A stretch of DNA of 64,000 nt from Halorubrum depositum (lineage in GTDB: Archaea > Halobacteriota > Halobacteria > Halobacteriales > Haloferacaceae), in NCBI RefSeq assembly GCF_007671725.1, contig NZ_VCNM01000002.1, forward strand, positions 1 through 64,000. The letters run 5' to 3'. Positions within the stretch are counted from its first letter, which is position 1. The number at the start of each line of letters is the position of its first letter. A program made the position numbers and the translations under genes. Of this stretch, positions 59,265 through 64,000 are shown in pieces. The notes beneath the pieces were generated by a model. That model saw only the letters and a list, made by a program, of their open reading frames with translations, made no database searches and had not been told where the DNA came from.

Positions 59265-59288
59265 AAAAGCGCTTTTAACCGTCTTTTT
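59265..59288. terminator. Bidirectional terminator-like palindrome and T-run
   Basis: Between the convergent stops of ychF and the AOR-like gene, the perfect palindrome AAAAGCGCTTTT (59265-59276) is followed by TTTTT (59284-59288). Both strands could use it to end transcription. Confidence 0.5.
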
Positions 59289-61170
59289 AACGGTCGCCGT
59301 CGGGATCCGGCACGCGCTCGGCCGAGCCGACCGGCGTCGCCGCGTCCGGCAGGTCGGCCAGCCCGAGCCGGTCGAGCAGCCGAGCCGTCGGCCGGCCCTC
59401 GCGGTCCCAGTCTCGGTACGCGTAGTACCGGTCGAGCAGCCGCTCGAACGCCTCGGGATCGAGCCCGTCGCGTTCGGTGTCCGAATCACCGTCGCGCTCG
59501 CGTCCCGGCCCGCCTTCGGTGTCCCTCGTCAGCGCCTCGGGGAGCGCGTCGTCATCCCTGGTGAACCCCTCCCGGAGGTTGAACAGCCGCGCGAGCGTCC
59601 ACACGCGCTCGCCGAGGAGTCTGAGGTCCTCGGGGTCGCGCTCGTCGCCGAGCGCCGCGAACCACTCGGCGGCGACCTCGGGACCGAAGGCGTCCGCGAG
59701 GAAGTCGTCGGCGACGAGACACCACAATGCGGCGCGGCGGTCCTGCTCGTCGGCGACGGTCGCGGCGCGCTCGGCCGGGCTCCATCCCGGATCCGCCACC
59801 GCCTCGGTCTCGACCGGGCGGGCGCGCCGGTGGCACCCGCCGCGGTCGCTCGTCGCGAACGCGAGCGCCATCGTCGCGGCGCCCCGCGGGTCGTACGACG
59901 CCAGCTCCATCCCCTTCACCGTCGGGACGAGGTCCGCGCCGCCGAACCGCTCGGCCGCGGCCTCGACACCGTCGGCGAGCGCGTCGCCGAGCGGCGTCCC
60001 CCGCGACGCGATCTCCTCGATCAGCGCCCGCGCCGCCGCCTCGTCGCCGAACGCGAGATCCCCCTCGACGCCGTGGTCGGCGGCGTCGATCAGGCCCGCA
60101 TCGCTCGCGCGGACCGCCCACGCGACCGCGTTGCCCGCGGAGATCACGTCGACCCCCAGCCGGTCGCAGACGCCCCCGAGCGCCGCGGCGGCGTCGAAGT
60201 CGTCGATCCCGAGCCCCGAGCCGAGGGCGATCGGAGTGCCGCCGCGAGGGACGGTCTCCGCGGGGTCGGAGCCGCCGTCAGCGCCCGATCGCTCCCCGTC
60301 GCCCGCGGGGATCCGGAACCCGCCGGGGACCGCTTCGTCCGGGCGCTCGCGGCCCGCGGCGCGCTCGCTCGCGCGCTCGACGCCGAGGCCGTCGGCCCCC
60401 TCGAACCGCCGCGCCTGCCAGCCCCGCGTCGGGAGCACGCCGGTCTCGTCCGCGAACGAGACCGTCTCGAGGGTGTCGCCCGCGGCGAGCCACCGGCCCG
60501 CGTCGCTGTCGGCGAACCGCTCCGCGTCGCGGTCGCGGAGGTCGCGGAGCGCCGGCGGCGTCTCGGGCGGCGGGTCGCGGGCGACGACCGCCTTCAGACG
60601 CTTCGATCCCATCACGGCGCCCGCGCCGCCCCGGCCGGCGTGGTGGTCGCCGCCGTCGGAGGCGATCGTCGCGTAGCGCACCCCGGCCTCGCCCGCGGGG
60701 CCGATACAGGCGACCGCGGCGTCGGGAAACGCTGCGTCGGTCTCGGCCGCGTCGAGCCCCTCGATGTCGCCCGCGGGCTCGATCGTCGCCTCGCCGCCGC
60801 CGATCGAGAGCGCCACCGGCTCGGCCGCGGCGCCCTCGATCACGACACCGAGGTGGTCCCCGAGCGACCCCGCCAGCCGGCTCGCGAACGACCCGCCGCC
60901 GTAGGAGTCGAGAAACGCACCGGTGAGCGGCGACTTCGTGACGGCGGCGTAGCGCGGCTCGCCGGGGAGGTGGCTCGTCAGCGGGCCGACGAGGAACGCG
61001 AGCCGGTTCGCCGGCGCCTCCGGGTCGACGCCGGGATCCGTCTCGTAGAGGTAGCGCGCGCCGAGCCCCTTTCCTCCCACGTACCGCTCGCGCCACGCCG
61101 CCGGGACGCGCTCGCTGCGCACCCGGCCGGCGGAGAGGTCGACGCGGAGGATCCGGTCGGGGACGCTCAT
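59287..61170 (-). CDS. Aldehyde:ferredoxin oxidoreductase homologue lacking the CxxCxxxC cluster motif
   Basis: A 627-aa protein of the tungsten-pterin AOR family. Landmarks: an N-terminal domain with RYVGGKGLGARYLYE, PLTSHLPGEPRYAAVTKSPLTGAFLDSYGGGSFA, GPAGEAGVRYATIASDGG and HHAGRGGAGAVMGSKRLKAVV. The pterin motif DRLGVDVISAGNAVAWAV follows. The family [4Fe-4S] ligand motif (C-x2-C-x3-C) that normally sits between the two halves is absent: the stretch after LPTRGWQARRFEG has no cysteine. The fourth ligand position may be the Cys of AALWC. It may therefore be a pterin enzyme without Fe-S, a chaperone or a sensor. A divergent yqeC gene lies 121 bp away. Confidence 0.88.
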   Translation of the reverse strand: MSVPDRILRVDLSAGRVRSERVPAAWRERYVGGKGLGARYLYETDPGVDPEAPANRLAFLVGPLTSHLPGEPRYAAVTKSPLTGAFLDSYGGGSFASRLAGSLGDHLGVVIEGAAAEPVALSIGGGEATIEPAGDIEGLDAAETDAAFPDAAVACIGPAGEAGVRYATIASDGGDHHAGRGGAGAVMGSKRLKAVVARDPPPETPPALRDLRDRDAERFADSDAGRWLAAGDTLETVSFADETGVLPTRGWQARRFEGADGLGVERASERAAGRERPDEAVPGGFRIPAGDGERSGADGGSDPAETVPRGGTPIALGSGLGIDDFDAAAALGGVCDRLGVDVISAGNAVAWAVRASDAGLIDAADHGVEGDLAFGDEAAARALIEEIASRGTPLGDALADGVEAAAERFGGADLVPTVKGMELASYDPRGAATMALAFATSDRGGCHRRARPVETEAVADPGWSPAERAATVADEQDRRAALWCLVADDFLADAFGPEVAAEWFAALGDERDPEDLRLLGERVWTLARLFNLREGFTRDDDALPEALTRDTEGGPGRERDGDSDTERDGLDPEAFERLLDRYYAYRDWDREGRPTARLLDRLGLADLPDAATPVGSAERVPDPDGDR

Positions 61171-61291
61171 CGTGACCACCGTCGCGCCCGCACGGGATTA
61201 AACCACACGCCGCCGCGGACGGTCCGCCGCCGCGGACGGTCCGACCGCCGCGACCGACGCGTTTTCGCCCCGGGCGCCCGATTGGGCGAGT

Positions 61292-62029
61292 ATGGACGAC
61301 GTCGTCGACGCGCTCGACGCGGCCGCGGGAACGACCTGTCTCGTCGGCGCCGGCGGGAAGAAGACCACCCTCTACGCGCTCGCCGACCGGCTCGACCGGG
61401 CGGTGCTCACGGCGACGGTTCGGATCCCGATCTTCGACCGCGAGGTCGCCGAGGTCCGCGTGAGCGACGACCCGGTCGGCGCGGTCGAGGCTGCGGCGAC
61501 CGAAGGGACTGCGTTCCCGCTCGGCCTCGTACCGGAGCGCGAGCGAGACGACCGCTACCGGGGGTACGACCCCGCCGTCGTCGACGAGATCGCGGTCGCT
61601 CACGACGGTCCGGTGCTCGTGAAGGCGGACGGCGCCCGGACGCGACTGCTCAAGGCGCCGAACGAGCGCGAGCCGCAGGTCCCATCGGGCGCGGACCGCG
61701 TGATTCCGGTGGCGAGCGTCGGGGCGGTCGGCGAGCCGCTGACCGCGGAGGCGGTCCACCGGCCCGAGCGCGTGGCCGCGATCACCGACGCCGAGGTCGG
61801 CGACGAGATCACCCCCGAACTGGTCGGGCGCGTGCTCGCTCACGAGGCGGGCGGACTGAAGGACGTGCCGCCGGAGGCGACACCGATTCCCATGATAAAC
61901 GCGGTCGACGACGACGCAGACGGGGAGACCGCGCGGGAGATCGCTCGCGTCGTTCACGAGCGCGCCGACGTGCCCCGGGTCGTGCTCGCGCGGATGATCG
62001 CGGGCGAGGTCGTGGACGTCGTCGACTGA
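61292..62029 (+). CDS. yqeC: YqeC-family protein (selenium/molybdenum cofactor-related P-loop)
   Basis: A 245-aa protein: MDDVVDALDAAAGTTCLVGAGGKKTTLYALADRLDRAVL, where GAGGKKTT is the nucleotide-binding loop. Further family landmarks are VLVKADGARTRLLKAPNEREPQVP and VASVGAVGEPLTAEAVHRPERVAA, then PIPMINAVDDD. In bacteria YqeC is associated with molybdenum-hydroxylase and selenium cofactor genes. Here it is divergent from the AOR homologue, suggesting that it helps that enzyme's pterin cofactor. No selenium genes are visible, so the bacterial 'selenium' label should be treated as a family name, not a function. Confidence 0.8.
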   Translation: MDDVVDALDAAAGTTCLVGAGGKKTTLYALADRLDRAVLTATVRIPIFDREVAEVRVSDDPVGAVEAAATEGTAFPLGLVPERERDDRYRGYDPAVVDEIAVAHDGPVLVKADGARTRLLKAPNEREPQVPSGADRVIPVASVGAVGEPLTAEAVHRPERVAAITDAEVGDEITPELVGRVLAHEAGGLKDVPPEATPIPMINAVDDDADGETAREIARVVHERADVPRVVLARMIAGEVVDVVD

Positions 62030-62125: not shown

Positions 62126-62449
62126 ATGGAACGAACCGTGACGGTGGTCCCCGAGGCGGGCCTCCACGCGCGACCGGCCTCGAAGCTGGTGCAGGCGGTG
62201 AACCGCTTCGACGCCGACGTGTCGATCGGTCGCGCGGAGGACGGCGACGACGGGCTGGTCCGCGCCGACAGCATGCTCTCGGTGAGCGGACTGAACGTCG
62301 GCCACGGCGAGTCGGTCCGCGTCGTCACCGAGGGCCCGGACGCGGCCGACGCCCTCGACGCGGTCTGTGACCTGCTCACGAGCGAGGTCGAGGGGAACGG
62401 AGACGCCGAGAGCGGTCGGGACGGGACCGACGGCGGTGACCCGGAGTGA
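62126..62449 (+). CDS. ptsH: HPr phosphocarrier protein (PTS)
   Basis: A 107-aa protein carrying phosphate from enzyme I to sugar-specific EII. The active-site His14 is in PEAGLHARPASKLVQAVNRF, and the helix with the regulatory-type serine is ADSMLSVSGLNVGHGESVRV. An acidic tail (EVEGNGDAESGRDGTDGGDPE) is a haloarchaeal extension. A 4-nt overlap (GTGA) with ptsI indicates coupled translation. PTS systems in haloarchaea are known for fructose uptake, which fits a phosphotransfer role here, but the EII genes lie outside the window. Confidence 0.93.
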   Translation: MERTVTVVPEAGLHARPASKLVQAVNRFDADVSIGRAEDGDDGLVRADSMLSVSGLNVGHGESVRVVTEGPDAADALDAVCDLLTSEVEGNGDAESGRDGTDGGDPE

Positions 62450-64000
62450 GGACGCTCACCGGCGTGGGGAGCACGCCGCTCGCGGGCGTCGGGACGGCGC
62501 GCTGGTACCGGCCCGAGGCCGACCTGACGCTCCCCGACCGACCCGACCCCTCCGCAGTCGACGCCGACGCCGAACTGGCCCGCTTCGAGGACGCCCGCGA
62601 CGAGGCCCGCGAGGCGATCCGGAACGCGCGCGACCGGGCCGCCGAGCGCGTCGGCGAGGAGGAGGCCGCGGTGTTCGACGCGCACGAGGGGTTCCTCGAC
62701 GACCCGGAGCTCGTCGGGGACGTCGAGGAGGCGATCCGCGACGGGACGCCCGCCGAACACGCCGTCCGCGACCGGTTCGCGGCCGCGATCGAGCAGTTCG
62801 AGGACCTCGACGGACGGATGGCCGAGCGCGCCGACGACCTCCGGGACGTCCGCGACCGCCTGCTGCGCGTCCTGCTCGACGCCGACGCCCTCGTCGACCT
62901 CGGCGACCTCCCGGACGGGACCGTGCTGCTGGCCGAGCGGCTCACCCCGAGCGACACCGCGGCGCTGGACCCCGACGCGGTCGCCGGGATCGCGACCGTC
63001 GCGGGCGGGCGAACCGCGCACGCGGCGATCATCGCGCGGTCGCTGTCGATTCCGGCGGTCGTCGGCGTCGGCGAGTCGCTGCGCGACGTGGAAGACGGGG
63101 ACGACCTGCTCGTCGACGGCGAGGCCGGCCGAGTCGTCGTCGACCCCGACGCGGAGACGCGGGAGGGGGCCGGCGGGAACGAGGCGCCGGTGATCGCCGA
63201 GCGCGTCGCGACCGCCGACGGCAGGTCGGTCGAGGTGGCCGCCAACGTCGGGAGCGAGGCGGAACTGGCGCCCGCCGCCGACCGCGGAGCCGACGGGATC
63301 GGGCTGTTCCGGACGGAGTTCCTCTTCCTCGACCGCGAGGCGCCGCCGACCGAGGACGAGCAGTACGAGGCAGTGAACACTGCGCTCTCGGCGTTTCCCG
63401 ACGACCGGGTGGTCGTCAGGACGCTCGACGTCGGCGGCGACAAGCGGGTGCCGTACCTCGACCTGCCGACCGAGCCGAACCCGTTCCTCGGGCGACGGGG
63501 GATCCGGCTCTCGCTCGACGAGCACCGCGACCTGTTCGAGACGCAGCTCCGGGCGCTGTTGCGGGCGGCCGCGAGCGAGGGCGACGGCGAGGGGCTCGCC
63601 GTGATGGTCCCGCTCGTCTCCCGGATCGAGGAGGTCGAGGCGGCCGCGGAAGCGGTCGAGTCGGTCGCCGCCGACCTCGCCGCCGAGGGCGTCGACCACG
63701 CGGTTCCCGAGCTGGGCGCGATGATCGAGACGCCGGCGGGGGTCTTCCTCGCCGACGCGCTCGCCGAGCGGCTCGACTTCCTGAGCGTCGGCACGAACGA
63801 CCTCGCGCAGTACGTGATGGCGGCCGACCGCGAGAACGACGGTGTCGCCGACTACCACGACCCCCTCCACCCGGCGGTGTTGCGGGCGATCGACCACGCG
63901 ACGTCGGCCGCCGCAGGGACCGACGCGTGGGTCGGCATGTGCGGCGAGATGGCCGGCGACCCGGCGCTCACGGAGCTGCTGGTCGGGCTCGGGCTCGACG
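62446..64000 (+). CDS. ptsI: PTS enzyme I (PEP-protein phosphotransferase), 3' end outside the window
   Basis: At least 518 codons without a stop, starting at GTG overlapping the ptsH stop by 4 nt (VRTLTGVGSTPLAGVGTARW). Enzyme I transfers phosphate from PEP to HPr. Active-site His192 is in TVAGGRTAHAAIIARSLSIPAVVG. The PEP-binding barrel has GIGLFRTEFLFLDREAPPTEDEQY, TLDVGGDKRVPYLDLPTEPNPFLGRRGIRLS, ELGAMIETPAGV and SVGTNDLAQYVMAADREND. The catalytic Cys is in GMCGEMAGDP near the window edge. Only about 45 residues are likely missing, judging from the family's usual length of about 560-575. No upstream ATG fits, so the GTG start is used. Confidence 0.92.
   Translation, partial: MRTLTGVGSTPLAGVGTARWYRPEADLTLPDRPDPSAVDADAELARFEDARDEAREAIRNARDRAAERVGEEEAAVFDAHEGFLDDPELVGDVEEAIRDGTPAEHAVRDRFAAAIEQFEDLDGRMAERADDLRDVRDRLLRVLLDADALVDLGDLPDGTVLLAERLTPSDTAALDPDAVAGIATVAGGRTAHAAIIARSLSIPAVVGVGESLRDVEDGDDLLVDGEAGRVVVDPDAETREGAGGNEAPVIAERVATADGRSVEVAANVGSEAELAPAADRGADGIGLFRTEFLFLDREAPPTEDEQYEAVNTALSAFPDDRVVVRTLDVGGDKRVPYLDLPTEPNPFLGRRGIRLSLDEHRDLFETQLRALLRAAASEGDGEGLAVMVPLVSRIEEVEAAAEAVESVAADLAAEGVDHAVPELGAMIETPAGVFLADALAERLDFLSVGTNDLAQYVMAADRENDGVADYHDPLHPAVLRAIDHATSAAAGTDAWVGMCGEMAGDPALTELLVGLGLD

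Follow-up and report, generated by a model that had tools for sequence, protein, structure and literature searches.

What does a protein of the aldehyde ferredoxin oxidoreductase (AOR) family do once the cysteines of its [4Fe-4S] cluster are gone, and what ties its gene to the yqeC gene beside it? The question is raised by a window of 64,000 nucleotides (positions 1 to 64,000 of contig NZ_VCNM01000002.1) from the haloarchaeon Halorubrum depositum. The AOR-type gene lies on the reverse strand at 59287..61170 and encodes 627 aa from the in-frame ATG at 61170; the open reading frame 59287-61179 gives 630 aa when read from GTG at 61179. A region of 121 bp (61171..61291) then separates this ATG from yqeC, which occupies 61292..62029 on the forward strand and encodes a P-loop (GAGGKKTTL) protein of a cofactor-maturation family, over the TIGR03172 cut-off. 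The coordinates agree with the preliminary description of a 627-aa frame facing away from yqeC across a 121-bp gap. Within this shared upstream region, most of 12 Halorubrum-type relatives share a TTTAATC box (61196-61202) located 25 nt upstream of the ATG of the AOR-type gene, which speaks for the ATG start and for short-leadered transcription. The conserved sequence on the yqeC side is CGAAA, or TTTCG when read on the forward strand. As a general feature, the divergent promoter was not retained: in other genera yqeC is found upstream or downstream, or mobA lies in between. The protein matched AFOR_N (1e-59) and AFOR_C (7e-86) in Pfam, and three other AOR paralogues are present in the window genome, all on the same contig. 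After yqeC, the window contains HPr and PtsI genes (62126-63999); the order yqeC-HPr-PtsI is found again in the Halorubrum group, where it is preceded by three genes resembling, by eye, a DhaK/DhaL/DhaM set.

We use the name clade A, coined here, for the haloarchaeal group of AOR-fold proteins free of Fe-S ligands, whose members have no annotation beyond "aldehyde ferredoxin oxidoreductase C-terminal domain-containing protein". Numbers such as Cys288 or Glu313 refer to Pyrococcus furiosus AOR (1AOR); those of the window protein are given as such. The window protein contains four cysteines in all (its residues 158, 338, 449 and 487) and no C-x2-C-x3-C, as first described. At the positions of Cys288, Cys291, Cys295 and Cys494 it carries D, V, F and D, so the fourth cluster ligand is gone too, since the Cys494 position holds Asp, and Glu313 is missing as well. 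According to the alignment, the former C-x2-C-x3-C site corresponds to its residues 281-288 (DEAVPGGF; 60316..60339, reverse strand), in a loop modelled with low confidence. On the same strand, its residues 312-314 (RGG; 60238..60246) stand in place of E311-Y312-E313, with loss of the catalytic Glu, its residues 486-491 (WCLVAD; 59707..59724) align with the second pterin motif DSAGLC, and its His450 (59830..59832) is the equivalent of the catalytic His448.

These changes are common to an alignment of 57 orthologues from across Halobacteria, about 50-90% identical: all four [4Fe-4S] ligands are absent from 57/57, which bears out the idea of a conserved subfamily. The Cys494 site is Asp, the Arg182 site His, the Tyr312 site Gly and the Asp489 site Trp in every one of them, and at the Glu313 site clade A carries Ala, Gly or Ser, with Glu kept in 0/57. 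Thr243, Tyr427, Cys447, His448 and Asp343 are all kept in 57/57, meaning that three residues of the second-shell set Thr243/Glu313/Tyr427/His448 are retained and Glu313 is missing. Of the two pterin motifs, only the first (D-x2-G-V-D) is kept; the second (DxxGLC) is replaced by W(C/S)L(V/I)xD. With Trp in place of Asp489, the way in which the second pterin is bound may differ. When 73 nearly invariant columns (93% or more) were defined in 36 Fe-S-bearing AORs, 59 of them were found retained at 90% or more in clade A, and exactly six were lost in over 90% of its members, namely C288, C291, C295, E311, E313 and C494. An AlphaFold2 model computed from 47 sequences (pLDDT 82, pTM 0.87), in which the former cluster loop (about 250-314) is poorly defined, matched AOR structures with Z 34-43 and 1AOR with Z 40.

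A displaced cysteine set was looked for against 1AOR and 9mqx and none was found. Cys338 and Cys449 of the window protein are the counterparts of Cys337 and Cys447 in 1AOR, and Cys158 also occurs in 9mqx; the conserved cysteines are thus inherited from Fe-S-bearing homologues, which have the four ligands besides. Selenocysteine was rejected too, as in-frame TGA or TAG codons in some orthologues came from alignments running beyond the true stop.

In a 60-protein tree, made by a quick method and with unequal composition noted, clade A was monophyletic, had a long stem (0.74) and was sister to a second haloarchaeal group, clade B (SH-aLRT 99-100), which also formed one group. Clade B, exemplified by Natrialba magadii NMAG_RS18645, is 44-46% identical to clade A by BLAST and shares Tyr93, His182 and His183 with it. 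Unlike clade A, it keeps all four cysteines and Glu311/Glu313, and it is present in some genomes without yqeC. Because the two clades are sisters and clade B keeps the ligands, the most economical reading would place the loss of the cluster after the split from an Fe-S-bearing ancestor. Among the best 80 matches listed in named genomes, all were from Halobacteria with one exception, a record named only as a Euryarchaeota MAG.

The distribution of clade A was compared with that of yqeC and formate dehydrogenase (FDH) in 292 Halobacteria genomes. Clade A was found in 159 and yqeC in 201, and all 159 clade A genomes contain yqeC (Fisher p about 3e-43, counting the genomes as independent and ignoring phylogeny). 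Nine genomes with intermediate E-values were assigned by targeted search, five to clade A (split alignments) and four to clade B only. Within the window's genus, 31 genomes carry both genes and four carry neither. The link to yqeC, checked in this way, was thus upheld, and it is specific to clade A rather than common to AORs, since 21 of the 292 genomes have an AOR-family protein without yqeC. Formate dehydrogenase alpha (TIGR01591, over cut-off) was detected in 152/159 clade A genomes, 191/201 yqeC genomes and about 211/292 Halobacteria; these counts are good to a few genomes. Occurrence is therefore nested: clade A is confined to genomes with yqeC, and most yqeC genomes have FDH. This pattern fits a partner of YqeC but also a client enzyme of YqeC. 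Since 42 genomes, most of them with FDH, have yqeC and no clade A, clade A is not generally required for FDH.

The selenium setting that yqeC would suggest was not borne out. Neither SelD nor YqeB was detected over cut-off in the window genome, and both are missing from 142/159 clade A genomes, so a selenium-cofactor role of clade A and its yqeC was rejected. Both proteins are over cut-off in the same 22/292 haloarchaeal genomes. Where coordinates are listed, for instance at G154:C7:245948-248808, it is a second yqeC copy that adjoins SelD/YqeB, so that the selenium-cofactor locus is distinct from the yqeC that goes with clade A.

Gene neighbourhoods were read with a GC3-based gene caller and direct tblastn markers. 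In 37 clade A loci of about 16 kb, YqeC was found 21 times, FdhA 20, a TorD-like chaperone 16, DUF7124 16 and MobA 13. At least one of FdhA, MobA, YqeC and TorD was nearby in 33/37 of these loci and in 66/80 named clade A loci. In contrast, none of the four was found near 22 ordinary AOR loci, nor near six clade B loci. In Haloarcula, clade A has MoaA (TIGR02668, over cut-off) and a MOT1 molybdate transporter as neighbours. Even when clade A is absent, yqeC lies beside MobA in 15/20 loci and beside FdhA in 13/20. The FDHs neighbouring clade A retain the Cys-His active-site motif and come in three architectures of about 700, 935 and 1100 aa, a variety that points to a common supply step rather than to a subunit. 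Two uncharacterised neighbours recur: in many genera the clade A gene is immediately followed by DUF7124 (L064:8714-9508), and a protein of about 185 aa (L040:13507-14067), without a match in Pfam or NCBIfam, adjoins fdhA/mobA; no functional clue was found from DUF7124, DUF7405 or this unnamed protein.

FdhD is an FDH sulfurtransferase and a carrier that binds bis-MGD (PMC13197769). It was found in 0/292 Halobacteria genomes with TIGR00129 and in 0/116 with Pfam FdhD-NarQ, while the same searches recovered the positive controls from E. coli, M. jannaschii, M. acetivorans and S. acidocaldarius. This indicates that the FDHs of Halobacteria are matured without a recognisable FdhD. In bacteria, YqeC has been linked to molybdenum enzymes that carry a labile chalcogen (PMC2276186), and we infer that it is the obvious candidate for FDH maturation without FdhD. 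The 11 sampled FDH-bearing genomes that lack yqeC (L244-L256) have a distinct FdhA of about 757-870 aa with the motif DNCNRLCHSS.

Altogether, these results suggest that the Fe-S-free AOR clade tied to yqeC represents a new step in the making of formate dehydrogenase by these archaea. We tentatively propose, as the best of the readings though one that may well prove wrong, that clade A is a disarmed AOR acting as a holder or carrier of cofactor for FDH. The protein would no longer oxidise aldehydes, and electrons could not leave it by the usual route. It would still bind the bis-pterin Mo/W cofactor, its pocket being mostly kept with one of the two pterin motifs, and would hold it or pass it on together with the P-loop protein YqeC and MobA. 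The cofactor would then be supplied to the haloarchaeal FDHs, which must mature without the sulfur-transferring carrier FdhD. The genomic link of clade A to Mo-cofactor genes (mobA, moaA, molybdate uptake) supports this carrier reading, and of the three roles first suggested for the protein, the chaperone fits best, given formate dehydrogenase, MobA, MoaA, MOT1 and TorD. The larger claim, in which a YqeC-based system replaced FdhD in haloarchaea and the former AOR, minus its Fe-S ligands and catalytic acids, became its cofactor-holding scaffold, is rather unlikely as it stands. FdhD is like the proposed role of clade A in being an FDH-linked cofactor carrier, so that clade A would fill the same gap, but the two families are unrelated. 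Several observations argue against a carrier. FDH does not generally require clade A, as the 42 genomes above show, and the second pterin motif has Trp at the Asp489 site. Thr243, Tyr427 and His448, invariant as described above, are residues that a pure carrier could do without. The FDH gene of the window genome is distant, with FdhA at contig positions 142163-144220, about 78 kb beyond the window end. Finally, some clade A loci point to one-carbon catabolism.

In the main rival reading, clade A is a working Mo/W-bis-pterin one-carbon enzyme without an Fe-S cluster, its cofactor matured by YqeC and MobA, and we regard this as possible though doubtful. The metal would pass electrons directly to a small acceptor, or the reaction would run without net electron exit; an electron acceptor other than the Fe-S route, already considered in the preliminary description, is possible. 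The three retained second-shell residues favour such an enzyme, as do neighbours connected with betaine, sarcosine, formaldehyde and formate-THF. Around HTUR_RS23010 we found glycine-betaine oxygenase, a DAO-GcvT protein, a NuoF-like protein, fdhF and glyA; formaldehyde dehydrogenase family genes lie beside clade A at some loci and formate-THF ligase in Halorussus; and FdhA of the window genome adjoins formate-THF ligase and a GcvT-like protein. Against it, Glu313, one of four second-shell residues conserved in aldehyde-oxidising WORs (PMC13328260, PMC12096430), is missing, the usual electron exit is lost, and at many clade A loci the neighbours include cofactor-making genes but nothing from one-carbon metabolism.

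It is improbable that clade A is a subunit or a stably bound partner of FDH. The fdhA and AOR-type genes are directly adjacent on one strand at two loci (L039 and L052) and yqeC-AOR-fdhA-mobA all lie on one strand at a third (L050), as a subunit would have it, but clade A is accompanied by three FDH architectures, fdhA is often distant, as in the window genome, and FDH is often present without clade A. There is likewise little to recommend a non-catalytic role in which the protein senses molybdate, tungstate, pterin or aldehyde and regulates yqeC or the FDH genes: the upstream region shared with yqeC in the Halorubrum group would suit it, but this arrangement is not kept outside that group, the two AOR domains alone match in Pfam, with no DNA-binding or signalling domain, and the sensor suggested at the outset gained no positive evidence. 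Sequencing error, pseudogene formation or strain-specific decay, with close homologues keeping the motif, has next to no chance and is refuted by the conserved clade, as all 57 orthologues share the loss with intact ORFs and with Asp and His at the Cys494 and Arg182 sites, and dN/dS between the window gene and four relatives is 0.19-0.40.

The Haloferax volcanii enzyme of WOR clade 83 (9q1t) and 1AOR have the same two Pfam families and fold, and Thr243, Tyr427, His448, Arg76 and DxxG(L/V)D in common with clade A; unlike clade A, they have the four Fe-S cysteines, Glu311/Glu313 and the second pterin motif. A June 2026 WOR classification makes the [4Fe-4S] cluster part of the large subunit and describes Thr243, Glu313, Tyr427 and His448 as conserved in most aldehyde-oxidising WORs (PMC13328260). 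A 2025 review states that the active-site layout is common to all tungstoenzymes and includes one or more Fe4S4 clusters close by, and gives three Cys and one Asp as the cluster ligands of WOR5/ASOR of P. furiosus (PMC12096430). WOR5 thus resembles clade A in belonging to the AOR family with an Asp among the ligand positions, but its three Cys and its cluster remain, whereas clade A has none of these Cys. No Fe-S-free WOR/AOR clade was found in the passages of these two sources that matched key terms or in the other literature searched. Selenium-trait YqeC of E. coli and C. difficile is like the window YqeC in scoring over the TIGR03172 cut-off and lying beside a MobA-type nucleotidyltransferase; the window YqeC differs in having no SelD/YqeB and in being tied to FDH, not to molybdenum hydroxylases. 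Deletion of yqeC in C. difficile gave no clear phenotype and the role of YqeC is unsettled (PMC11448449); a function of YqeC alone beyond the use of selenium has been proposed, though only in a general way (PMC5029168). In the literature searched, we found no paper joining YqeC with aldehyde ferredoxin oxidoreductase and no link of YqeC to FDH.

Over half of the Halobacteria species sampled thus carry an Fe-S-free WOR-family member, and since precisely the redox ligands and the catalytic acids have been cleanly lost, it offers a natural test of what the pterin scaffold can do by itself. For YqeC, a setting without selenium emerges that is linked to formate dehydrogenase, and the maturation of haloarchaeal FDH without FdhD becomes a testable gap. 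For Halobacteria, the labels "selenium cofactor biosynthesis protein" (TIGR03172) and "aldehyde ferredoxin oxidoreductase" should not be taken literally. As for clade B, its neighbours are FAD oxidoreductase, agmatinase-family, amidase or aldehyde dehydrogenase genes. On pNMAG01 of Natrialba magadii (L212, L218), clade B is surrounded by genes for an FAD oxidoreductase, an agmatinase-family protein, an amidase and an M20 hydrolase, which suggests an aldehyde step in the catabolism of an N-substituted compound.
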